Shown here in pieces: positions 51,714 to 63,426 of a DNA stretch of 64,000 nt; the first letter of the stretch is position 1, and each line of letters begins with the position of its first letter. Location of the stretch: NCBI GenBank assembly GCA_003020945.1, contig PXRU01000032.1, positions 1 to 64,000 of the forward strand, read 5' to 3'. The stretch is from Halobacteriales archaeon QS_6_71_20 (GTDB lineage Archaea > Halobacteriota > Halobacteria > Halobacteriales > Haloferacaceae). The notes below the pieces were generated by a model. The model made no database searches. It was given only the letters and a program-made list of their open reading frames with translations, and had not been told where the DNA came from. The position numbers were made by a program, and so were the translations under genes.

Positions 51714-54700
51714 TCACGCCTCCTCGACCGTCGGCGTCGAGAACAGCGTCTCGAACACCTTCCGCTGGCCCTTCCGGAGGTGTTGATGGAAGGTCGGCGC
51801 AGCGACGCCGATCGACTCGGCGACCTCCTCGCCGGTCCTGTCCCGGGGCCACTCGAAGAACCCGGAGTGGTGGGCGACCTCAAGCGCGGTCCGCTGGCGG
51901 TCGGTGAGCGCCGTCACGAGGCTCCGACCGACCGTGTCCGTGTCGTGTCTGTCGGGGGAGATCTGCCGACGACGGAGCATCTCGGCCGGGGAGTACACCT
52001 CCCGGATCCGCTTCACCAGCTCCCGGACATCGGCGGTGGGCGGGAGACGGACCGACATCTCGAGGGTTCCGTCCTCGATCACCGCCCTGTGGACGTGGCC
52101 GCCCCGGGAGGCGATCGCCGAGACGATCGGCGGGCTGGAGACGCGGAGCTCGAAGCGAACCGGGTCGCCGTCGGACTGTGCGGTGAGCTCCTCCCAGTTG
52201 GGGTGCGTCTCGACGTTCTCGGCCATCGCGTCGAACGTCGCCGCCGACGCGGTCCCGTACAGCAGATGTTCGTCGTCGCCGACGGCGACCGTGTTCTCGA
52301 AGAGCATCTTGCCGTCGATGTCGCCGAAGCCGTCGATCGGCTCGAAGACGTTCTCACACCGGATGTCGACCTCGACCAGCTCGTCGCTCATCAGCGCCTG
52401 TTTCCGGTCGGCCGCGGCGATCGCGTGGCCGGCGACCTCGCCGAGCTGTGCGATCATCCGCCGCTCCTGCGGGGCGAACGCGTTCGGTCGCTCCGTGTAC
52501 ACGTTCAACACCGCGTACACCGTCCCTTCGTGGACGATCGGTACCGCGGCCGACGCGCGGAAGCCGTACTCCTCGATCGTAGACCGCCACGGGTCGTGGC
52601 GGTCGTCGGCCCGGATGTCCGTCGCGACCTGCACCTCCCCGGTTCTGAAGGCCCGCCCCGTGGGACCGTTGCCGCGCTCGTCGTCCGGGTCGAAGGTGAT
52701 CGACACGTCGTCGAGGTAGCCCTCGACGCCGGCCTGCGCCTGCGGCGTCACCCGCCGTGACCCGGTTTCGACCTCGCCGATCCACGCGAACGAGTACGAG
52801 TCCGTCTCGGCGAGCCGCTCGCAGACGGTCGCCTCGATCTCCGCGCGCGTCGACTGGTCGATGACGGCGGTGGTGACGTCCCGGACTACCTGGTTGAGGC
52901 TGTTCACCGCGGCCAGCTGCTGTCGCTGCTGGACGAGCTGGTGTTCCCGCTGGTGTCGTTCGATCGCCGCCGCGAGCACGTTCGCGACCGACTGGAGGAA
53001 CGTGGCGTCGTGGTCGGAGAACTCCCTGCGGTCGGGGTCGTGCGTCCCGAGGATCCCCCAGGGGTCGGACTCGGGACCGATCACCGTGCTGATCCCGCTG
53101 GTGACGTCGTGGCTGGTGAGCAGTTCCGGGCCGCTGAACCGGCGTTCCGTCCCGAGGTCCTCGACGATGACCGGCCCGTCGGTCGCCAGCGTGTGGGCCG
53201 CCTGGGAGTCCTCGTCGACGGCCGATACCGTCGCCTCGCCGACGATCCCGTCGTCCCAGCCCACGCCCTGGCGGAGGTGAAGCCGGTCGTCGTCGACGTC
53301 CAGATCCAACACCTTACAGTACTCGGTGTCGAGCGTCTCCGAGACGAGCTCCACGGCCTCGCCCAGCAGCGCGTCCAGGTTCAGGTCCTCCAGCGCCCGT
53401 CGCCCGAGCTCCGAGATCGCCGCCTGTTGGCTGACCCGGCTCCGGAGCTCCCGCTCGCGGCGCACTCGCTCGGTGATCTCCTGAGACATGCCGAGCGCGG
53501 CGAACACCTCGCCGTCGTCGTCGCGGACCGGCGCGAAGCGGTACTGGTAGATCCGGTCGTCGACCGAGTCGACGAACTCCGTCGACTCGCCGTCCAGCGC
53601 CGTCTCGTAGCCGGGGATCACCACGTCCGCGATCCGGTCGGGGAGCGAGTCGGAGAGCGGCTCGCCCTCGAACACCGGCCGGGAGAGTCCGGTGTCGCCC
53701 TCCAACGAGCCGCCGAACGTCGTGTAGCGAAGCTCCTCGTCGACGAGCGCGACGACCCCGTTGGGGAAGTGTTCCGTGATCGCCCGGAGCCTGCTCTCCT
53801 TCCGGCGGAGCTCCGTCTCGCGCTCCCGTCGTTCGGTGACGGCCCTGAAGTACACCGAGATCCCCGTCTCCGAGGGGTAGATGTTGCTCTCGAACCACTC
53901 TTCGGCCGGTTCGAAGTAGCTCTCGACGACGACCGGCGCCTGGCGCTCTCGGGCCTCTAGAAGCCCCGCCTCGAGTTCGGGCGCCAGGTCGACCGCCTCG
54001 CGGACGTTCCGACCCACCGTCGCGAACCGGTCCAGCCCGAGCAGCGACGTCGCGCGGTCGTTGATGAACGTGAACCGGAGCTCGTCGTCGAGGGCGTAGA
54101 AGCCGTCCGAGATCCGGTCGAACACCTCGTCGAGTTCGGCGCCGAGCTCGTGGCCCGGGCGGCCCCGCCCCGACCTTCCGGGCCGCCTCCGTGCGTCCCG
54201 TCCGATGCCGGTGAAGCCGTCCAGCTCCCCGTCCTCGTCGTGCAGGGGCCCGCACGTGAACTCGTACGGGATCTCCGCCCCGTCGGCCGTCACCAGCGGG
54301 AGCTCGAACGTCACGCTCTCCGGCCGGTCGGTGACGCGCTCCATGACGGCCCGGACCTCCGATCTGGCGGGTTCAGGGACCAGCTCGTCGGGTCGCATCC
54401 CCTCGATCTCCGCGTCCGTGTACCCCGTCACCTCGGCGAGTCGGTCGTTCCACCGGACGAGCTCGCCGTCGGCGTCGAACGTGTACACGAGGTCGCGCCG
54501 GGAGTCGAACTGACCGATGTCGAGGCCGCGTCCTCCGGCGGGATCTGCCTCGGCCGCGCGACGGTCGGTCAGGTCGCGGAGGACCGCCGTGTAGCCGACC
54601 ACGTCGCCGTCCGTCCGGACGGCCGAGACCGTGACGGCCGCCCGGAAGCGCGAGCCGTCCGGGCGCAGTCGTCGCCCCTCCTCCCGGACGGTCCCCAGTT

Positions 54701-55202
54701 CGGCGGCCGCGCGCAGCGTTCGCTCGGTGACTCCCTCGTCCCGGTCGGCGGGCGTGTGGAACCGGGAGAAGTGTCCGCCGACGACTGTTCCGGCGTCGTC
54801 GCTCTCGTCCCACCCGTCGGCGGCGTTCCACGCTCGGACGGTGCCGCCGGGGTCGAGCGCGAGCACCGCGTACTCCTCGGCCGTCTCGACCAGCGCCCGG
54901 AGCTGTCGGTCGCGAACGGCCCCCCTCCCCGACGTCGTGGTGTCGGCGCCGTCGTCCGCCCGAGCCGTGTCGCCGACGCCGGCGCCGTCGCCGGACGGAG
55001 GTCGCCACCAGACGCGGGCGTTCGCGCCCACCTTCTTCGTCCGGAGTCGGCCCGCCTCGACGAGTCGCTCCAGGCGTGCGTAGGCGGTTCGGCGACCGAC
55101 GCCCAGTTCCTCGGCCACCTCCGGCGTCGTTCTCGGCTCCCCCGACTCGACGAACGGCCGTATCGTCTCCCGGAGCGACTCCCCTGGCGTGTTCCCTCGC
55201 AT
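51714..55202 (-). CDS. Bat-type multi-sensor transcriptional regulator (HTH, four PAS, two GAF, BAT, HTH_10)
   Basis: A 1162-aa regulator. Residues 1-65 are a winged HTH (RETIRPFVESGEPRTTPEVAEELGVGRRTAYARLERLVEAGRL). Four PAS domains lie roughly at 85-200, 215-330, 345-450 and 455-570 (for example DLVYTFDADGELVRWNDRLAEVTGYTDAEIEGM). GAF1 is at about 580-735 and GAF2 at about 755-910. A bacterio-opsin-activator sensor domain follows, and at the C-terminus is HTH_10, LTDRQRTALEVAHHSGFFEWPRDRTGEEVAESIG. It should bind DNA and sense redox, light or metabolites through PAS/GAF. Two DNA-binding ends are unusual. The ATG at 55202 is preferred to a TTG nine codons earlier. Confidence 0.92.
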   Translation of the reverse strand: MRGNTPGESLRETIRPFVESGEPRTTPEVAEELGVGRRTAYARLERLVEAGRLRTKKVGANARVWWRPPSGDGAGVGDTARADDGADTTTSGRGAVRDRQLRALVETAEEYAVLALDPGGTVRAWNAADGWDESDDAGTVVGGHFSRFHTPADRDEGVTERTLRAAAELGTVREEGRRLRPDGSRFRAAVTVSAVRTDGDVVGYTAVLRDLTDRRAAEADPAGGRGLDIGQFDSRRDLVYTFDADGELVRWNDRLAEVTGYTDAEIEGMRPDELVPEPARSEVRAVMERVTDRPESVTFELPLVTADGAEIPYEFTCGPLHDEDGELDGFTGIGRDARRRPGRSGRGRPGHELGAELDEVFDRISDGFYALDDELRFTFINDRATSLLGLDRFATVGRNVREAVDLAPELEAGLLEARERQAPVVVESYFEPAEEWFESNIYPSETGISVYFRAVTERRERETELRRKESRLRAITEHFPNGVVALVDEELRYTTFGGSLEGDTGLSRPVFEGEPLSDSLPDRIADVVIPGYETALDGESTEFVDSVDDRIYQYRFAPVRDDDGEVFAALGMSQEITERVRRERELRSRVSQQAAISELGRRALEDLNLDALLGEAVELVSETLDTEYCKVLDLDVDDDRLHLRQGVGWDDGIVGEATVSAVDEDSQAAHTLATDGPVIVEDLGTERRFSGPELLTSHDVTSGISTVIGPESDPWGILGTHDPDRREFSDHDATFLQSVANVLAAAIERHQREHQLVQQRQQLAAVNSLNQVVRDVTTAVIDQSTRAEIEATVCERLAETDSYSFAWIGEVETGSRRVTPQAQAGVEGYLDDVSITFDPDDERGNGPTGRAFRTGEVQVATDIRADDRHDPWRSTIEEYGFRASAAVPIVHEGTVYAVLNVYTERPNAFAPQERRMIAQLGEVAGHAIAAADRKQALMSDELVEVDIRCENVFEPIDGFGDIDGKMLFENTVAVGDDEHLLYGTASAATFDAMAENVETHPNWEELTAQSDGDPVRFELRVSSPPIVSAIASRGGHVHRAVIEDGTLEMSVRLPPTADVRELVKRIREVYSPAEMLRRRQISPDRHDTDTVGRSLVTALTDRQRTALEVAHHSGFFEWPRDRTGEEVAESIGVAAPTFHQHLRKGQRKVFETLFSTPTVEEA

Positions 55203-55432
55203 GGGATCGGCCTGCGCCGTCCGGGACAAAGACAGTTCCGTCGACGGAACTCAATTCGGCGAGAGCGTGACGGAATCCGGTAGCCAATCGCGAACCGACC
55301 GGCCGGATCGCCCGGGGACGTTCAGGTGTCCCAGATCGGAGAAGCCCGACCGTACCCCCTAAACAGTTTTACTACACGCTCATGCACGCTTGGCGCCACG
55401 AACACCTACCGGCCTAGCCCGGAACACCCACA

Positions 55433-55747
55433 ATGACCCCGACTAACGTCGATATAGCCGAGGATTACACGGTAACGACCGATCTACCCGCCGGAGAGCG
55501 GTACGAGCTCCTCGAATCCGACCGGCGCCGGATCGCGCTTCGCGTCCTGAAGCGGCGTCGGTCGCCCGTCGAGCTCTCGACCGTCGCCGAGGCCGTCGCC
55601 TCCTCCGAGGAGGGGGTCGACGCCCGCGACGACGAGGCGGTGTCGCACGTGGCCGTCTCGCTTCACCACCGCCATCTCCCGAAGATGGACGATCTCGGCG
55701 TGATCGACTACGACCCCCGGTCGAACCGGGTCACCGAGGTGTGGTGA
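55433..55747 (+). CDS. DUF7344-type winged-helix protein
   Basis: A 104-aa predicted cytoplasmic protein. GERYELLESDRRRIALRVLKRRRSPVELSTVAEAVASSEEG and SHVAVSLHHRHLPKMDDLGVIDYDPRSNRVTEVW follow the DUF7344 pattern: helices, then the H-H-x-H-L-P-K-M-x-x-x-G-V-I-x-Y-D wing. This is a common small haloarchaeal DNA-binding-like family. It is divergent from the Bat-type regulator across 230 bp, with a ttttac box near 55365-55372 some 60 bp upstream, so the message may carry a short leader. Its targets are unknown. Confidence 0.85.
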   Translation: MTPTNVDIAEDYTVTTDLPAGERYELLESDRRRIALRVLKRRRSPVELSTVAEAVASSEEGVDARDDEAVSHVAVSLHHRHLPKMDDLGVIDYDPRSNRVTEVW

Positions 55748-56028
55748 TCTCGCGCGGGTCGCGTCGTCGCGGCCCGCCCGGGTGAGCCCGGGACCCCGGA
55801 GCGGCGACGGAGCGGCCCGACCCGAAGCCCGTCCGTGCCGCCCGGACGGAGTGCGGGACCGCGTCGGCGTCCGCACGGCCGTGGCATGTGATCGACCGTC
55901 GCTCTCGCCAAGGCGCGGTCCCGTTCTCCGCCGCTCCGTCCGAGCCGGCGCCCCGGTCCGCGGTCCCCGACGGGGCGTGTGCCCTCCGGACGGTCGTTCC
56001 GACCTCGCCGGCGAACCGAGTCGGAGCG
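55748..56028. other. Intergenic region without recognised gene
   Basis: About 280 bp between the DUF7344 gene and a glycosidase remnant. Reading frames in this interval show no coherent domain. The sequence is rich in CG dinucleotides and could hold degraded upstream parts of nearby genes. Confidence 0.3.
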
Positions 56029-56241
56029 TCAATCGAACCGACAGACGACGGCGTCCTCGACGCGAACCGTGCTCGACTCGTCACCCGACTCCCGCTCGCG
56101 CGGGTCGGCGGTCGCCACGTCCTCGCCCGAGAGCAGATCCGTCGACACGACCCGCCCGTCGAGGGCGACCGTCGCGGGCTCGTCGCCGAAGTTGAGCACG
56201 ACCGCGAGACGTTCCGCCTCGGTCGCGCGGACGACCGCCGT
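56029..56241 (-). pseudogene. C-terminal remnant of a glycoside hydrolase (GH42/GH13-like)
   Basis: A minus-strand fragment of about 70 codons with the C-terminal beta-sandwich of glycoside hydrolases: AVVRATEAERLAVVLNFGDEPATVAL, then STDLLSGEDV and the ending VRVEDAVVCRFD. Upstream of about 56241 the frame turns Arg/Pro-rich and no catalytic barrel is found, so only the tail remains. GH42 beta-galactosidases end this way (D-L-L-x-G) and GH13 enzymes have a similar L-N-F-x-D/E-P strand. It supports the idea that this area once encoded carbohydrate breakdown. Confidence 0.55.
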
Positions 56242-56425
56242 CCGCGTCCGGGTCGGAGGACTCGGGCGACACCCGAGTCGGCGAACCGCCGACACCGGCG
56301 ACCGGCCCCGGGTCGTCCGGGCGTCCGTGGGCCACCCGGCACCCGGGGACACGTTGTCGCGTCCGCGTTCAGGAGGAGGAGACTGATGAGCGCTCGGTTC
56401 GGGCCGGGCGGGCGAACGGGCACAG

Positions 56426-56986
56426 TCACTCGACGGCCCGCTGGAGCCCGATCCAGTTCACGACGGTGCCGCCGTCGTCCGTCACGGGGACGATCGACAC
56501 CCGGTTGCGGAACGTCGTCCCGTCCGCGCGGTAGTTCGTCAGCGTGACCGTCGCCCGGTTCCACGCCGACAGCGCCGCGGCCAGCGTCGCGACCGGCTCC
56601 GACTCCGTCGCCTCCCCCTGCAACAGTCGGAGGTTGTGACCCCGAAGCTCGTCGAGCGCGTAGCCCGTCAGCTCCCGGAACGTCCGGTCGGCGTACACCA
56701 GGGGGTTGTCCGCGTACGCCGGCCCGGTCAGCGTGATCCCCAACGGCGAGCCGTCGAGTACCCGTATCCGCCGGATCAGCGCCCGCTCGCGGCCGCCGAT
56801 GCCGCCGCGGTCGTTGTCGAGGTCGTCGAAGTCGCCGAAGTCGTCGTCGGGAGCGGGCTCGCCGTCCGCGAGCCGTGTCGCCCGGCCGGCGTCGTACTCG
56901 TCGGCGTCGAGCACCGACGGGAAGCGCGCGCGGAAGCGCTCGTCGTCGAGGCGAAGCAGGTCGGCGATCTCGTCGCGTGAGGCCAT
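56426..56986 (-). CDS. PAS/LOV-like domain protein lacking the photoactive cysteine
   Basis: A 186-aa protein. The first 70 residues are acidic linker. The PAS domain spans about 75-186: LGITLTGPAYADNPLVYADRTFRELTGYALDELRGHNLRLLQGEA, TLTNYRADGTTFRNRVSIVPV and a final WIGLQRAV. The GHNLRLLQG segment stands exactly where LOV photoreceptors have GxNCRFLQ, with Leu instead of the adduct-forming Cys; other LOV features (FRELTGY, N/Q-rich strands) are kept. It may bind flavin without forming the adduct, or bind another ligand. No output domain is present, so it could be a partner of a histidine kinase or of the Bat-type protein nearby. Confidence 0.82.
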   Translation of the reverse strand: MASRDEIADLLRLDDERFRARFPSVLDADEYDAGRATRLADGEPAPDDDFGDFDDLDNDRGGIGGRERALIRRIRVLDGSPLGITLTGPAYADNPLVYADRTFRELTGYALDELRGHNLRLLQGEATESEPVATLAAALSAWNRATVTLTNYRADGTTFRNRVSIVPVTDDGGTVVNWIGLQRAVE

Positions 56987-57214
56987 CGGGTCCGAGGCCC
57001 CGTCGGGACGCCGGCGCAAAACCACTGTCGGCGTCGGAGGTCGCCGTGTTTCTCGCACCTCTCGAACCTCTGTCCCCGCCGTACCTCTCGCACGTCCGTC
57101 GCGCCCTTCGCATCTGCCGAGCCTGGCGTCTGCTGCGTTTCTCACACGCCCGCCGCGCTCTCCGCGCCCGCCCGCGTCCGAAGGTTGAAACGCCGACCCG
57201 GCGTTCCGTGCGGT

Positions 57215-58081
57215 ATGTTCACAGGATTCACCGACGAACGGGTCGACGTGGGCGACGCGGAGCTTCGCGTCCGGCGCGCCGGCGACGGGCCGCCGCTGCT
57301 GCTCGTCCACGGCTACCCGGAGACGCACGCGATGTGGCACGAACTCGCCCCCGCGCTGGCGGAGGAGTTCGCGGTCGTCTGCCCCGACCTCCGCGGCTAC
57401 GGCGACAGCCGGGGGCCGGCCGACCCGGAGACGGCGGACTACTCGAACCGCGCGATGGCGAGCGACCTGACGGCGCTCATGACGGAGTTGGGCCACGACC
57501 GGTTCCGGCTCGTCGGCCACGACCGGGGCGCCCGCGTCGGCTACCGGCTGGCGCTCGACTCCCCGGAGCGGGTCGAGCGCCTCGCGGTCCTGGACGTGGT
57601 TCCGACGCTCGAGACGTTCGAACTGATGGACTACGAGTACGCCGAGCGGATGTACCACTGGCTGTTCCTCGCCCAGGAGTACCCCGTCCCGGAGACGCTC
57701 ATCGGCGCCGCGCCGACGTTCTACCTCGATCACCTTCTGGAGCGTTGGAGCGTCACGACGGACGACTTCGAGGAGGCGGCGACGGCCGAGTACCGCCGCT
57801 GTTTCTCCCGTCCGTCGGTGATCCGGGCGAGCTGTGCCGACTACCGCGCCGGACTCCGGGTCGACATGGTACACGACCGGGAGTCGCGGGCGGCGGGCGA
57901 CCGGATCGAGGCGCCGCTGCTCGTGCTGTGGGGGACGGGGTCGGGGACGGTGTCGTTCGACCCGGCGGAGATCTGGCGGGAGTGGGCGACCGACGTGCGC
58001 GGCCGGGGTATCGACTGCGGCCATTTCCTCCCGGAGGAGGCGCCCGCGAAGACGCTGGCGACCCTCGAACGGTTCCTCTGA
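57215..58081 (+). CDS. Alpha/beta hydrolase, fluoroacetate/haloacetate dehalogenase candidate
   Basis: A 288-aa hydrolase with the haloacetate dehalogenase layout: LLVHGYPETHAMWHELAPAL, VVCPDLRGYGDSRG, LVGHDRGARVGYRLALD, AVLDVVPTLETF, YHWLFLAQEYPVPE and GHFLPEEAP. The residues expected for fluoroacetate dehalogenases are all present at matching spacing: nucleophile Asp103, Arg104 and Arg107, Asp127, His148-Trp149, Tyr210 and His270. This is the C-F-cleaving pocket (halide held by His, Trp and Tyr). The gene is alone between a PAS gene on the other strand and an AAC(3)-like gene. An epoxide hydrolase is less likely because of the His-Trp-Tyr halide pocket. Confidence 0.88.
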   Translation: MFTGFTDERVDVGDAELRVRRAGDGPPLLLVHGYPETHAMWHELAPALAEEFAVVCPDLRGYGDSRGPADPETADYSNRAMASDLTALMTELGHDRFRLVGHDRGARVGYRLALDSPERVERLAVLDVVPTLETFELMDYEYAERMYHWLFLAQEYPVPETLIGAAPTFYLDHLLERWSVTTDDFEEAATAEYRRCFSRPSVIRASCADYRAGLRVDMVHDRESRAAGDRIEAPLLVLWGTGSGTVSFDPAEIWREWATDVRGRGIDCGHFLPEEAPAKTLATLERFL

Positions 58082-58159
58082 CCCGACCCTTGGATCGTCA
58101 TGCGGTTTTGTGTGCCCGGCTCCGGTAAGGCCGCCTTTCCCCGATCTAAGTGAAGTGTT

Positions 58160-58171
58160 ACATTGTATATA
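58160..58171 (+). promoter_or_regulatory. TATA box of the AAC(3)-like gene
   Basis: The AT-rich run attgtatatatg lies about 18-29 bp before the ATG at 58189. Confidence 0.55.
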
Positions 58172-58188
58172 TGTAGGAGGGATACGGT

Positions 58189-59010
58189 ATGACCGACGGA
58201 CCCGGCCCGGTCCACGAACTCAAGCGGTGGGGAACGATCGCGAGGCGGGTGTACACGCGCCGGCTCCGGGAGCGCGTCCGGGACTGCTCGGCGTCGCCGT
58301 TCCCGTTCAGCGAGTTCCGGTCGATCCTCGACGACTACGACGACGACGTGATCTTCGTCCACGTCGGTCTGAGCGACGTCAGCGCCGCGTTCGGCGACGA
58401 CTCCTACGACCGGGTCTGCTCGGAGCTGCGGCGCCAGTTCGACAGCGTCCTCGTCCCCGGGTTCACGCCCAGCTTCAGGTCGTCGGGCGTGTACCACAAG
58501 CGGTACTCCCGGCCGCAGGTGGGCCTGTTTCCGGTCCTGTTCATGGACGACGCCGACTACCGGACCGACGACCCGCTCCACTCGATCCAGGTCGCCGGCG
58601 ACTACCGGTTCGACGGCTGCGACCACCACGACACGTTCGGCGAGGACGGCTGTTACGCCCGGCTCGACGACGACAACGTCCTCATCGCTAACATCGGCAC
58701 CGACCGGCTCGTCTCGACGCAGTTCCACTACGTCTCCGTCCGGGCGGATCCGCCGTATCAGGCGTCGAGCTCCCACGCCGGCGAGATCTACTACGACGAC
58801 GAGCGACACGGCGGGGTCGAGCAGCGCAACGACACCTTCACCTCGACGTACACCTGGAACCGCTGGAAGCTGGAACGCCGGCTCGCCGACGAGGGGGTGC
58901 TCGACCGACGGGACAGACACGGGCTGAAGCTGTCGCTGTTCAGAGCCAGGGACATGCGGACCGCGCTGGAGCCGGCGATCGAACGGGACCCCTACTACAT
59001 GGTCGCGTGA
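58189..59010 (+). CDS. AAC(3)-family (aminoglycoside 3-N-acetyltransferase-like) protein
   Basis: A 273-aa protein related to the antibiotic N-acetyltransferase AAC(3)/YokD family (PF02522). It begins with VIFVHVGLSDVSAAFGDDSYDRV, then LRRQFDSVLVPGFTPSFR, DPLHSIQVAGDYRFDGCDHHDTFGEDGCYARL, NVLIANIGTDRLVSTQFHYVSVRADPPYQ, and a late NDTFTSTYTWNRWKL. The HS-x8-G-x2 pattern and the T-Q-F-H-Y segment correspond to the acetyl-CoA and substrate sites of AAC(3), though divergent. A surface-sugar amine or nucleotide-sugar amine acetylation is at least as likely as drug resistance. A TATA box at 58160-58171 supports the start. Confidence 0.75.
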   Translation: MTDGPGPVHELKRWGTIARRVYTRRLRERVRDCSASPFPFSEFRSILDDYDDDVIFVHVGLSDVSAAFGDDSYDRVCSELRRQFDSVLVPGFTPSFRSSGVYHKRYSRPQVGLFPVLFMDDADYRTDDPLHSIQVAGDYRFDGCDHHDTFGEDGCYARLDDDNVLIANIGTDRLVSTQFHYVSVRADPPYQASSSHAGEIYYDDERHGGVEQRNDTFTSTYTWNRWKLERRLADEGVLDRRDRHGLKLSLFRARDMRTALEPAIERDPYYMVA

Positions 59011-59068
59011 GCGCCACGGCGTCGCCGTCATCCGGCCGCGCCGGGTCGCGTGGCCCGAGCGCGACCCC

Positions 59069-61807
59069 TCACTCGGGGGAGACGTCGACGTCGCCCTCCC
59101 CCGCCCCCTCGGCCGCCGAGAACTCGCGTCTGTTCTTCGCCGCCAGGGTGACGAACAGGAGCAACCCCGCCGCCCGGAGGGTAAGGTCGAGCACCAGCGG
59201 GTCCATCGAGACCGCGATCCCGGCCAGGCCGAGGAGGTCGATCGCCGCCGTCGAGAGCAGCGCCGGCGCCATCAACAGTAGGGAGCTGAACGCGAAGCCC
59301 GCGCGCTCGCTGCGGTCGACGCCCGTGTACAGCGTGCCGATGACGGTCGCCCCGAGCGCGATCACGCCCAGGAAGACGCCGACGACGGGGACGATGACCT
59401 CCGGCACCGAGTACGAGGGCTCCGCGAGGTCCGCGAACTCGACGACGCGGTAGCGCTCCCGGACCGGCAGGTCGGCGGCGCCGGCCCGCTCCCGTAGCAG
59501 GACGATCCCCGGGGCGAGCACGAACGCGAACGGCACGATCGCCTTGTTGAGCGACAGCGAGAACGCCTTCACGCCCGTCTCGAACGGCTCCGACTTGGCG
59601 ACCCCGCTGGCGGCGTAGGCCGCGACCGCCACCGGCGGCGTGATGTCGGCGATGACGCCGAAGTAGAGGATGAACAGGTGCGCGGCCAGCAGGGGAATGC
59701 CGAACTCGACCAGCGGCGTCGCCAGCATCGAGATGAGGATGATGTAGGTGACGGTCGTGGGCATCCCCATCCCGAGAACGATGCTCGCGACGGCCGTCAC
59801 CAGCAACATCACGACGATCGAGCCGCCCGACAGCGCCAGCAGGAGGGCGGTGAGGTTCGGCCCCAGCCCGGAGACGCTGATCACGCCGGGGATGATGCCG
59901 GCGGCGGCGACCGCGACGACGACCGGTACCGCCGTCCGGGCGCCCTCCTCCATCGACGTCACCACGAACGTGCCCACCCGGAACAGCTGGTTGTCGCCGA
60001 GGTCGCGCCCGGTCCGCGACCCCGCCGACTCCGCCCTGTCCTGGACGATCGGGTTGAGGTCGAGCACGGCCGAGCGGACGTCCGTGTGGACGAGCATCGT
60101 CACCACCCCCGCGAGGATCGCGTACCACCCGATCCGGCCGAGCAGCACCGACGCCGCACGGGTGGCTCCCATGCCCGCGCCCCCGTCGCCCGCCACCAGC
60201 GCCGTCACCGGGACGCCGGCGACGACGTGACTGGCGAACTCGGCACCCACGATCGCCGCCAGCAGACCGAACAGGGTGAGCCTGGTGTCGTCGCTGTACG
60301 CGGCGATCACCGTGATCAGCGCGACGAGCGCGACGAGCGTGAACCACGCCGACCGCGACACCGACAGCCGCTCGACGATGAGGTAGTACAACAGCAGCAG
60401 GATCGGGACGAGATAGAACCAGCCCCGTTTCATGTGGGCGCCCAGCGGGGCCGTCTCGACGTCGTCGAGGCCGCCGATCCCCTGCTGGACCGCCTTGAGG
60501 TGGACCATCACCCAGACGCCGAAGAAGAAGACGATCGCCGGGATCGTCGCGAGGACGATGATCTCCGCGAACGGCGTCGCCGTGTACTGGACCATGAGAA
60601 ACGCCGCCGCCCCCATCACCGGCGGGAGGATCTGCCCGCCCGACGACGCCGACGACTCGACGGCGCCCGCGAACTCCGGCGAGTAGCCCGAGCGCTTCAT
60701 CAGCGGGATCGTGAACGCGCCGGTGGTCACCGTGTTCGCGATCGACGACCCCGAGATCGTCCCCATGAAGCCGCTCGCGAGGATGCTCGCCTTCGCCGGG
60801 CCGCCCTTCCGCTTGCCGGTGGCGGCGTACGCGAGGTCGATGAACCACTGGCCCGCGCCGCTCATCTCCAGGAACGAGCCGAAGAGGATGAAGATGTAGA
60901 TAAAGCTCACCGAGACGGTCACCGGGATGCCGAACACGCCGTTCTCGGTGTTGTACCAGAGGTTCTGCACGATGTCCGGCCACGTCAGCTCCGGGATGGC
61001 GAGCAGCCCCAGGAGCGGCGTGTCCGTGCTGATGAGGTACCCCCAGCGCGCGTAGACGATGAACGTGGCCACGATGACCATCAGCGGGAGGCCGAGCGTC
61101 CGCCGGGTCGCTTCGAGCACCAACAGGACGCCGGCGACGCCCAGGATCATCGCGTACGAGTAGTCGCCGACGAGCGGGACGCCCCCGAGGAGGGGGTCGA
61201 GGAACGGGTACACGCCGGTGATCGGCCGCCCCGATTCGAGGCCGAACACGCGCATATCCCGGATCTCCGAGAACTCCGTCAGGAAGTAGACGGCCGAGAG
61301 GACCGACGTGACGATACACGCCACGTCGAACGGCGTGACCCGGCTGCGGTCGGGGTCGACGAACGCCCACCGGGCGCCGCGACGCAGCCCCGCGAACGCG
61401 CGCGACGCCGGGTTGTCCGTCCCGAGACGGTCGGCGACTCCCCCCACCGCTCGACCGAGTCCGCGGGAGATGAGCCCCTCGCCCATGCTGGCGGGAAACA
61501 GCAGGAAGGTGAGCACCAGCGCGAACGCCACGTGGACCGCGTTCGCCTGGAGGAGTTGCAGCGACACCCGGACGTCGGCGGCGAACGGGACCCAGATCGT
61601 GAACGTGAAGCTCCGCGCGGCGAGGTACAGCTGAAACAGCGAGAACAGGATCCCGATCGCGGAGACGGCGAGGGCCGCGACCCCCGTCAGCGACCGCCGG
61701 CGCTCGATCTCGTCGATGAGCTCCTCGGCCTCCTCCCTGGACAGTTCCTCCGTGTTCGCTCCCGTCGGGTCGTCCGGTCCGTCGTCACTCGTGTCGGTGG
61801 AGTTCAT
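59069..61807 (-). CDS. TRAP transporter fused permease (4TM-12TM, DctQM type, TAXI-linked)
   Basis: A very large membrane protein of 912 aa. The N-terminal 60 residues are acidic and helical. The DctQ-like part lies about residues 40-300. The DctM-like part starts near residue 320 and shows EATRRTLGLPLMVIVATFIVYA, FGIPVTVSVSFIYIFILFGSFLEMSGAG, GFMGTISGSSIANTVTTGAFTIPLMKRSGY and SSASSGGQILPPVMGAAAFLM. A second set of helices (MGMPTTVTYIILISMLATP, GIPLLAAHLFILYFGVIADITPPVAVAAYAASGVAKSEPF) completes the DctM fold. TRAP importers use the Na+ gradient. It overlaps the DUF1850 gene by 4 nt and follows the TAXI binding-protein gene. Confidence 0.92.
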   Translation of the reverse strand: MNSTDTSDDGPDDPTGANTEELSREEAEELIDEIERRRSLTGVAALAVSAIGILFSLFQLYLAARSFTFTIWVPFAADVRVSLQLLQANAVHVAFALVLTFLLFPASMGEGLISRGLGRAVGGVADRLGTDNPASRAFAGLRRGARWAFVDPDRSRVTPFDVACIVTSVLSAVYFLTEFSEIRDMRVFGLESGRPITGVYPFLDPLLGGVPLVGDYSYAMILGVAGVLLVLEATRRTLGLPLMVIVATFIVYARWGYLISTDTPLLGLLAIPELTWPDIVQNLWYNTENGVFGIPVTVSVSFIYIFILFGSFLEMSGAGQWFIDLAYAATGKRKGGPAKASILASGFMGTISGSSIANTVTTGAFTIPLMKRSGYSPEFAGAVESSASSGGQILPPVMGAAAFLMVQYTATPFAEIIVLATIPAIVFFFGVWVMVHLKAVQQGIGGLDDVETAPLGAHMKRGWFYLVPILLLLYYLIVERLSVSRSAWFTLVALVALITVIAAYSDDTRLTLFGLLAAIVGAEFASHVVAGVPVTALVAGDGGAGMGATRAASVLLGRIGWYAILAGVVTMLVHTDVRSAVLDLNPIVQDRAESAGSRTGRDLGDNQLFRVGTFVVTSMEEGARTAVPVVVAVAAAGIIPGVISVSGLGPNLTALLLALSGGSIVVMLLVTAVASIVLGMGMPTTVTYIILISMLATPLVEFGIPLLAAHLFILYFGVIADITPPVAVAAYAASGVAKSEPFETGVKAFSLSLNKAIVPFAFVLAPGIVLLRERAGAADLPVRERYRVVEFADLAEPSYSVPEVIVPVVGVFLGVIALGATVIGTLYTGVDRSERAGFAFSSLLLMAPALLSTAAIDLLGLAGIAVSMDPLVLDLTLRAAGLLLFVTLAAKNRREFSAAEGAGEGDVDVSPE

Positions 61808-62316
61808 GTGAACAGGTCCGTCAGGCTCCGTCGTTCGATCCGGATGCGGACGTCGGAGGCGTTCGTCGCCGCGACGAGGTCGTACCGTCGTCCGTCTATC
61901 AGCAGTGCGTGTCCCGCGATCCGTCCGGGCGAAACCAGCAGGGAGTCGAGCTCGGCGATCGGCTCCGCCGGCTCGTACACGAACGTCCCGTCGACGGTCC
62001 GCACGTCGGCCCCCGACGGGAGCCCCCACCCGTACGACTCGAACTCCATCCGCGTGTTGACGAGCGTCCGCCCGTCCACGCGATACTCGTCGTACACGCG
62101 GGACTGCTCGACGCTGTGCATGTACTCCAGCGCGACCGTGCTGCCGTCATCGACCTCCTGGGTGACGTACCGCTCGCCCGTGTCGACGTCCTCGACGACG
62201 AGGACGAGTCCCGTCGGCGCCGCGGCCGCGACGCTCGCGAGCGCCACCGCGACCGCGACGGCCGCCGCTGCCGCCGCGATCGCGCGTCGCCGTCGGGCGG
62301 TCGTTTCTCCGATCAC
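61804..62316 (-). CDS. DUF1850 domain protein, TAXI-TRAP partner
   Basis: A 170-aa protein with an N-terminal hydrophobic stretch of about 28 residues (AAAAAVAVAVALASVAAAAPTG, a signal or anchor). The DUF1850 domain follows: VALEYMHSVEQSRVYDEYRV, NTRMEFESYGWGLPSGAD and VSPGRIAGHALLIDGRRYDLV. DUF1850 genes are regularly found between TAXI binding proteins and fused TRAP permeases. The exact function is unknown. It overlaps the permease start by 4 nt and is 84 bp after the binding-protein gene. Confidence 0.87.
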   Translation of the reverse strand: MIGETTARRRRAIAAAAAAVAVAVALASVAAAAPTGLVLVVEDVDTGERYVTQEVDDGSTVALEYMHSVEQSRVYDEYRVDGRTLVNTRMEFESYGWGLPSGADVRTVDGTFVYEPAEPIAELDSLLVSPGRIAGHALLIDGRRYDLVAATNASDVRIRIERRSLTDLFT

Positions 62317-62400
62317 TGGATCGATACGTGTGAGGCTTCAGTCGTTACCGCGGTCGTCGGACCGGCACCGGGGGTGCTCCCCCCGGTCGCTCGGGTCGGT

Positions 62401-63426
62401 TTACTCCCCGAAGTACGCCGACGCGCCCTGGTGGAGCTCGATCGACATGCCGTCCTGTGCGCTGTCGGCGCCGATGAAGTCGGTCTTGATCGACAGCTCG
62501 TCCACGTTGTCGAAGACGGCCGCCGTGACCGTCTCGACGGTGTCCGCGGAGACGCCGGCGTGTGTGGCGACCATCGCCTGCACGGCGACCGTCTCGATGT
62601 CCTCTTCGAGGCCGCTGTACGTCCCGCCGGGAATGGTGTCGTCCGCGAACCACGAGGCCGCGTCCTTCACCGTCTCGCGGTCGTCGCCCTCGATCGAGAC
62701 TATGTGGATGTCGTTCGTGTTCGCCAGGTCCTCGATGGCGCCGACCGGCCACCCCCCGACGACGAACGCGGCGTCGATGTCGCCGTTCGCGAGCTGTTCG
62801 GACGCCTGCGAGAAGCCGGCGTTCTGTTCGTTGTAGTCGGAGACCCCGACGGCCTCGAGGATCTGGTTGGCGTTGACCTGGGTGCCCGACCCGAGGTCGC
62901 CGGTGTTGATCGTGGCGCCGCTGAGGTCCCCGAGGGTCTCGATGCCGGTGTCCTGCAGCGTGACGACCGTGATCGTCTCGGGGTACAGCGTCGCGACCCC
63001 CTGGAGGTTGTCGATCGGGTTGTCCTGGAACGTGTCGATCCCCGTCCCGTTCTTCGCGAAGTACGCGATGTCGTTCTGGATCAGCGCGAAGTCGGCCGAC
63101 TCGCTCGACAGGCTCCCGACGTTCTCGACGCTCGCACCCGTCGACTGGACGTTCAGCGAGAAGTCGGTGTTCTCCTCGACGATCGTCTTGAACTCGTTCG
63201 ACAGCGGGTAGTACGTCCCGCCGGTGCCGCCGGCGTGCCAGCTCAGACGGTTGCTCGATCCGTCCCCGCCGCCGTCGGCCGTGGTGTCGCCGTCGCCGCC
63301 GGACGCGGTGCCGTCGCTCTCCCCGCCGTCGCCGTTTCCGCTACAGCCGGCAAGCGCCGCGATGCCGGCGACGCCGGTGATACCGGCCGCCTCGAGGAAT
63401 CGTCGTCGTGTCCGTTCGGAAGACAT
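62401..63426 (-). CDS. TAXI-family TRAP transporter substrate-binding lipoprotein
   Basis: A 341-aa exported binding protein. Tat signal TRRRFLEAAGITGVAGIAALAGC (lipobox Cys near residue 28), acidic Gly/Asp linker to residue about 58. The TAXI domain begins with HAGGTGGTYYPLSNEFKTIVEE, then STGASVENVGSLSSESADFALIQNDIAYFAKNGTG, ETITVVTLQDTGIETLGDL, NTGDLGSGTQVNANQILEAVG and DAAFVVGGWPVGAIEDL. It recognises organic acids, typically dicarboxylates or amino acids. A TATA box at 63453-63459 (rc tataac) fits the ATG at 63426. It is the first gene of the TRAP operon. Confidence 0.93.
   Translation of the reverse strand: MSSERTRRRFLEAAGITGVAGIAALAGCSGNGDGGESDGTASGGDGDTTADGGGDGSSNRLSWHAGGTGGTYYPLSNEFKTIVEENTDFSLNVQSTGASVENVGSLSSESADFALIQNDIAYFAKNGTGIDTFQDNPIDNLQGVATLYPETITVVTLQDTGIETLGDLSGATINTGDLGSGTQVNANQILEAVGVSDYNEQNAGFSQASEQLANGDIDAAFVVGGWPVGAIEDLANTNDIHIVSIEGDDRETVKDAASWFADDTIPGGTYSGLEEDIETVAVQAMVATHAGVSADTVETVTAAVFDNVDELSIKTDFIGADSAQDGMSIELHQGASAYFGE

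Follow-up and report, generated by a model that had tools for sequence, protein, structure and literature searches.

A haloarchaeal gene predicted to encode a salt-adapted fluoroacetate dehalogenase-type hydrolase

Identification of a dehalogenase-type gene

A gene at positions 57215-58081 on the forward strand of contig PXRU01000032.1 of Halobacteriales archaeon QS_6_71_20 very likely codes for a hydrolytic dehalogenase of haloacetates, fluoroacetate among them (EC 3.8.1.3 type), that is adapted to salt and would work by the aspartate mechanism. The stretch of DNA analyzed, designated the window, comprises 64,000 nucleotides. Phmmer matches and tree placement identified the product as a fluoroacetate dehalogenase-type alpha/beta hydrolase, and judged by its sequence the gene belongs to a known family, of which it represents an archaeal branch, the first found in our search of open-licence papers. 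The original prediction of a candidate fluoroacetate dehalogenase is supported by sequence matches, residues and tree, in which the protein groups with characterized defluorinating enzymes.

The reading frame starts with ATG, encodes 288 residues and contains a single terminal stop, as expected of a genuine gene. An alternative TTG start lies upstream at 57185, and in the alignment the methionine of ATG 57215 marks the same start as in 3QYJ. The GC content at codon positions 1, 2 and 3 is 73, 48 and 93%, a distribution typical for haloarchaea, which argues that this is a true haloarchaeal gene. The protein matched the Pfam model Abhydrolase_1 with an E-value of 1.4e-30. Bacterial contamination of the assembly was rejected because haloarchaeal records besides this one carry related copies (12 in all, namely 11 genomes and the plasmid record of Haloarcula sp. 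JP-L23; the copy in genome G549 is broken) and because the window protein shows haloarchaeal acidity and codon bias.

Among solved structures, the best phmmer match was 3QYJ (E 3.9e-92), followed here by RPA1163 of Rhodopseudomonas palustris (3R3U and others; E 1.4e-86). Both matches span the whole protein and are therefore not due to chance. 3QYJ is Alr0039, also named NOS0089, which is reported to defluorinate fluoroacetate and difluoroacetate and to resemble RPA1163 in structure (PMC11022551). One sentence of the same source places NOS0089 with the L-2-haloacid dehalogenases, a grouping that our alignment does not support. This Nostoc sp. enzyme is the nearest solved relative, with 50.7% identity over the full length, and shares with the window protein the catalytic triad, the arginine pair, the His/Trp/Tyr pocket, Trp at position 178 and Tyr34. 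It differs in having Ile in place of Gly at 244, in a loop that is one residue longer, and in its isoelectric point (6.3 over the aligned stretch versus 4.8), in that it is not salt-adapted. RPA1163 (48.4% identity) likewise has the same triad and pocket but carries Phe40 for Tyr34, Ile253 for Gly244 and two additional residues in the cap region. FA1 (FAc-DEX, 1Y37) was a weaker match (E 1.7e-67) than either; FA1 and Delftia FAcD-H1, compared through published numbers rather than by alignment, have the same kinds of residues (PMC11022551, PMC12955510). FA1 and RPA1163 are homodimers (PMC11022551).

Such enzymes had been considered little described in haloarchaea, and our search of the open-licence literature likewise linked no fluoroacetate dehalogenase to haloarchaea. 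Passages from a selection of open-licence papers that pair the enzyme with archaea tell of no archaeal fluoroacetate dehalogenase. The L-2-haloacid dehalogenase of Sulfolobus tokodaii presumably belongs to a different enzyme family; it is an archaeal enzyme. It is mentioned in PMC8554231, and haloacetate dehalogenases were annotated in a bacterial and archaeal sediment community, with none assigned to archaea in the accessible text (PMC11411797). The two annotated plasmid copies of the gene (Natrialbaceae archaeon AArc-T1-2 and Haloarcula sp. JP-L23) are both labelled just 'alpha/beta hydrolase'.

Catalytic and pocket residues

Asp103, Arg104, Arg107, Asp127, His148, Trp149, Tyr210 and His270 were all found at their predicted positions in the protein, and the contexts HGYPETHAMWH, GHDRGAR and YHWLFLAQ are present in the translation. 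The prediction had matched these residues, with an offset of one or two, to D104, R105, R108, D128, H149, W150, Y212 and H271 of FA1. Of these FA1 numbers, D104, D128, W150, Y212 and H271 agree with PMC11022551. Our residue comparison was made against the RPA1163 and NOS0089 alignments, and FA1 serves as a list match only.

The codons of the nucleophile Asp103 and of Arg104 (57521-57526, forward strand, as are all codons given here) align with RPA1163 D110 and R111, and that of the second arginine, Arg107 (57533-57535), aligns with R114; we take this arginine pair after the nucleophile to bind the carboxylate. The triad is completed by the acid Asp127 (57593-57595; RPA1163 D134) and the base His270 (58022-58024; H280). 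His148 and Trp149 (57656-57661; H155 and W156) together with Tyr210 (57842-57844; Y219) form the predicted fluoride pocket. Trp178 (57746-57748) aligns with W185, which we assume to be the number of the mobile tryptophan at the pocket of RPA1163; 10/12 archaeal rows and 9/16 bacterial rows have Trp here. The alignment agrees with the published RPA1163 triad Asp110-His280-Asp134 and pocket His155, Trp156 and Tyr219 (PMC11022551). Trp180 is described for FAcD-H1 (PMC12955510) and is taken to be the equivalent of Trp178.

In this family the aspartate displaces the halide, which is held by His, Trp and Tyr, and the resulting ester intermediate is hydrolyzed by activated water (PMC11022551). By analogy, Arg104 and Arg107 would hold a haloacetate by its carboxylate while Asp103 attacks the alpha carbon, and the leaving halide, fluoride included, would be stabilized by His148, Trp149 and Tyr210. 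His270, oriented by Asp127, would then activate water, so that the enzyme ester is hydrolyzed and glycolate is released. Trp150 of FA1, which corresponds to Trp149, is reported to be required for defluorination and not for dechlorination (PMC11022551). Measurable release of fluoride from fluoroacetate is a probable property of the window protein. Defluorination is not tied to the eight-residue set, since fluoroacetate is also defluorinated by a hydrolase of Serratia whose Ser-His-Asp triad has serine in place of the nucleophilic aspartate (PMC13230308).

All eight residues occurred together in 12/12 intact haloarchaeal copies and in 13/16 bacterial family rows, and in none of 18 paralogs. The paralogs are alpha/beta hydrolases of greater distance; one is from Hymenobacter and 17 are from haloarchaea, three of these from the genome of the window. 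The haloarchaeal ones represent 17 of 28 paralog loci (14 of 25 from other genomes and all three from the window's genome). The chance that eight random columns are all invariant across the 12 archaeal rows, two of which (JP-L23 and G301) are nearly identical, is about 9e-5. The residues had been put forward as a complete C-F-cleaving set; the set is indeed complete, but four of its members lack diagnostic value because paralogs share them: Asp103 and His270 (18/18 each), Tyr210 (17/18) and His148 (7/18). Arg104, Arg107, Asp127 and Trp149 were each absent from all 18 paralogs and are the residues that set the family apart. The arginine pair was present in every archaeal (12/12) and bacterial (16/16) row and in no paralog (0/18). 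In three bacterial rows (Acetobacter, Methylobacterium and Pseudosulfitobacter) His148 is replaced; in one of the three Trp149 and Tyr210 are replaced as well, and all retain the arginines. His148 is thus altered in 3/16 and Trp149 in 1/16 bacterial rows, whereas Trp149 is invariant across the archaeal rows, which indicates that the pocket can vary in the family yet is retained in these archaea.

The copies from G549, Aminobacter and Breoghania MO were left out of the tree and of the residue and loop counts. All eight residues are present in the G549 row and seven in the Aminobacter row, where position 270 has no letter; the match of the Breoghania MO row ends at residue 202, and this row is without Tyr210 and His270. 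The Embleya row was retained, though partial and read from an internal start. An AlphaFold model of the window protein built from nine sequences was poor (pLDDT 58.9).

Salt adaptation and a glycine-bearing loop

The window protein has an isoelectric point of 4.77, contains 17.7% Asp plus Glu and has a single lysine. For NOS0089 and RPA1163, the isoelectric points over the aligned stretches are 6.3 and 6.2, with 12% Asp plus Glu. Values of 4.5-4.8 were obtained for 11 of the 12 intact archaeal rows, and 5.4 for G445. This acidic composition points to a residence in haloarchaea that has probably lasted long enough for the gene to adapt.

The loop at residues 241-248, T-G-S-G-T-V-S-F (57935-57958, forward strand), contains Gly244 where RPA1163 and NOS0089 have Ile. 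Residues 243-245 read S-G-T in 9/12 archaeal rows; Gly244 occurs in none of the 16 bacterial rows, where the position is taken by Leu, Ile, Thr, Val and other residues. Lying near the acid pocket, the archaeal glycine loop may alter specificity. The most improved variant of FAcD-H1 carried the loop changes Q245M and M246L and converted more than 40% of difluoroacetate, compared to about 4% for the wild type, and Q245G was another of the variants (PMC12955510). Gln245 of FAcD-H1 may correspond to Gly244.

We regard it as possible, and put it forward tentatively, that these proteins form a distinct haloarchaeal lineage of salt- and chloride-proof defluorinases with a glycine-bearing loop and a widened range of acid substrates. 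If so, the halide pocket would need to tolerate or exclude chloride and still cut the C-F bond. The haloarchaeal cytoplasm contains molar chloride. Because this chloride might compete for the halide pocket, the haloarchaeal enzyme is a good test case for pocket function. C-F-cleaving enzymes are few in number, and all seven given in the accessible text of PMC11022551 are bacterial. An archaeal branch adapted to salt would be a source of robust catalysts for the breakdown of organofluorines in brines, would test the halide pocket against molar chloride, and would suggest that haloarchaea naturally encounter haloacetates.

Phylogeny and distribution

In a maximum-likelihood tree of 46 rows, a branch with 100/100 support parted the 12 archaeal and 16 bacterial rows, including RPA1163 and NOS0089 (the latter flagged for deviating letter composition), from the 18 paralogs. 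The 12 archaeal rows formed one group (93/99) that was recovered in 92% of 200 bootstrap trees, L003 being on a long branch. The sister of the archaeal group was the RPA1163 group, with weak support (88/85).

The closest relative of the window copy (77% identity) is found in genome G043, which belongs to another family of the same order. The neighbors of the two copies differ: PAS and Antibiotic_NAT-fold proteins in the window, and a squalene/phytoene synthase and a short-chain dehydrogenase in G043. This difference is consistent with gene transfer among haloarchaea. At E <= 1e-45 the gene was detected in 3/170 genomes of the window's family (its own included), 3/146 genomes of the G043 family and 5/125 genomes of the G291 family, and no match at that threshold was found in the 10 other listed genomes of the window's genus. 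In an order-wide sample of 293 genomes, 32 matched at E <= 1e-30; five of these (its own included) had copies of at least 64% identity, and the remaining 27 held relatives of 29-38%. Up to 8 first-look candidates per genome were scored in the order-wide sample and 14-19 in the three family searches, and absence from these counts is accordingly not proof.

The gene lies on a plasmid in AArc-T1-2, one of the 11 other genomes, and the Haloarcula sp. JP-L23 copy is from a plasmid record. Altogether 407 plasmid records matched at E <= 1e-30, with two archaeal records among the 40 matches listed; the loci of 14 of the 407 were examined. The wider dehalogenase family is common in bacteria. Haloarchaea probably gained the gene by transfer, and from a tree with a small sample of 16 bacterial rows we infer a bacterial origin followed by patchy spread among haloarchaea. 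The reading frame of the G549 copy (L050/L073) is broken before residue 35. On Aminobacter plasmid pMDW2 (L055, 4923-6804), a broken dehalogenase copy is immediately preceded by an acetamidase/formamidase gene, and transposase genes are nearby.

Genomic context

Divergent from the dehalogenase gene, on the reverse strand at 56429-57028, lies a gene for a PAS/LOV-like protein whose best NCBIfam match was the YtvA blue-light receptor family (97.9 against a cut-off of 250). Its segment GHNLRLLQ has Leu at the place where we would expect the photoactive Cys of LOV domains. An Antibiotic_NAT-fold gene (58189-59010, forward strand; Pfam PF02522, 41.5 bits) is co-directional and starts 107 bases downstream of the dehalogenase gene; its product matched no NCBIfam model at E <= 0.001. 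A TRAP-TAXI transporter set (59069-63426, reverse strand) follows, with a fused permease, a DUF1850 protein and a TAXI receptor. An Rfam scan of the window gave no matches.

The dehalogenase of Caballeronia S22 is flanked by genes for an aconitate methyltransferase, a fluoroacetyl-CoA thioesterase and crcB (PMC11812338). Genes of these types were not recognized, by Pfam matches, among the seven neighbors in the window (51714-63426). Two adjacent genes for CrcB, a fluoride channel, are located on another contig of the genome; they speak for the dehalogenase reading but are not specific, since CrcB was present in 10/14 control genomes, Haloferax volcanii included. Scoring of 150 of 331 first-look candidates in the genome, which is 94% complete, revealed no fluoride riboswitch. 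The best glycolate-oxidase-like (GlcD-like) gene of the genome scored 343.5 bits, below the family cut-off of 567.9.

Gene neighborhoods were compared for twelve loci beyond the window, reaching at most about 10 kb to either side and stopping earlier at contig ends. In three haloarchaea (L072, 9300-12635; L075, 3580-8331; L071, 4862-11131) the order is conserved: the dehalogenase, a carboxymuconolactone-decarboxylase-like gene, a small regulator-like gene and a formamidase gene, with an AmiS/UreI gene in two. The carboxymuconolactone-decarboxylase-like name comes from one record, its Pfam match being below the cut-off. The linkage of formamidase to the dehalogenase is suggestive only.

Substrate and role

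The enzyme would have an accessory role, detoxifying or scavenging. It is rather unlikely that fluoroacetate is its main natural substrate; no recognized resistance gene adjoins the dehalogenase gene, and no fluoride riboswitch was found among the candidates scored. We give close to an even chance to a dehalogenase that cleaves haloacetates by the same mechanism but in nature acts on a chloro-, bromo- or iodo-acid of brines, or on a bulkier 2-haloacid, with defluorination secondary. Chloroacetate and bromoacetate are also substrates of characterized relatives, and the organofluorines known from nature are few (PMC11022551). The glycine loop could widen the acid pocket, and the lack of a recognized fluoride-resistance gene beside the dehalogenase and of a detected riboswitch points the same way. 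Against this stands Trp149, the counterpart of the FA1 residue needed for C-F and not for C-Cl cleavage, which does not vary among the archaeal rows, while some bacterial rows have a changed His148 and one a changed Trp149.

In some soda-lake haloarchaea, a small amide could be taken up by AmiS/UreI and cut by the formamidase/acetamidase, and the resulting haloacetate dehalogenated, a route that we consider improbable. It would account for the formamidase-family gene found 1.2, 2.6 and 4.1 kb downstream of the dehalogenase in L072, L075 and L071 (3 of the 12 loci outside the window), for AmiS/UreI in two of these, and for the arrangement on pMDW2. These three loci are, however, close kin on the tree, and G291, of the same subgroup, showed no formamidase gene in the stretch compared. 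The L072 formamidase, the one locus scored, reached 589.9 against a cut-off of 500 with the strict formamidase model, which points to formamide. No such gene lies beside the window copy, and the FmdA matches of its genome are on contigs C9 and C19. The open-licence literature yielded no fluoroacetamide amidase paired with a fluoroacetate dehalogenase.

The least probable reading, and a very remote one, is that the protein only resembles a fluoroacetate dehalogenase and is in fact an esterase, a haloalkane dehalogenase or an epoxide hydrolase. The fold and the Asp/His core are shared, some close matches are titled 'probable epoxide hydrolase', and the haloalkane dehalogenase model and others do match, below their cut-offs. 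With scores of 70.9 bits against 241 (PRK03592), 52.8 against 265 (PRK00870) and 40.9 against 466 (PRK03204), haloalkane dehalogenase was rejected. Epoxide hydrolases are defined by a cap tyrosine at the position of residue 148 and a tryptophan following the nucleophile. The window protein has His148 where 10/18 paralogs have Tyr, yet 7/18 also have His, and it has Arg104 where 17/18 have Trp. Epoxide hydrolase was rejected on these replacements of the cap Tyr and the Trp, on the residue set that no paralog holds, and on the tree, whose 100/100 branch separates the window protein from all 18 paralogs.
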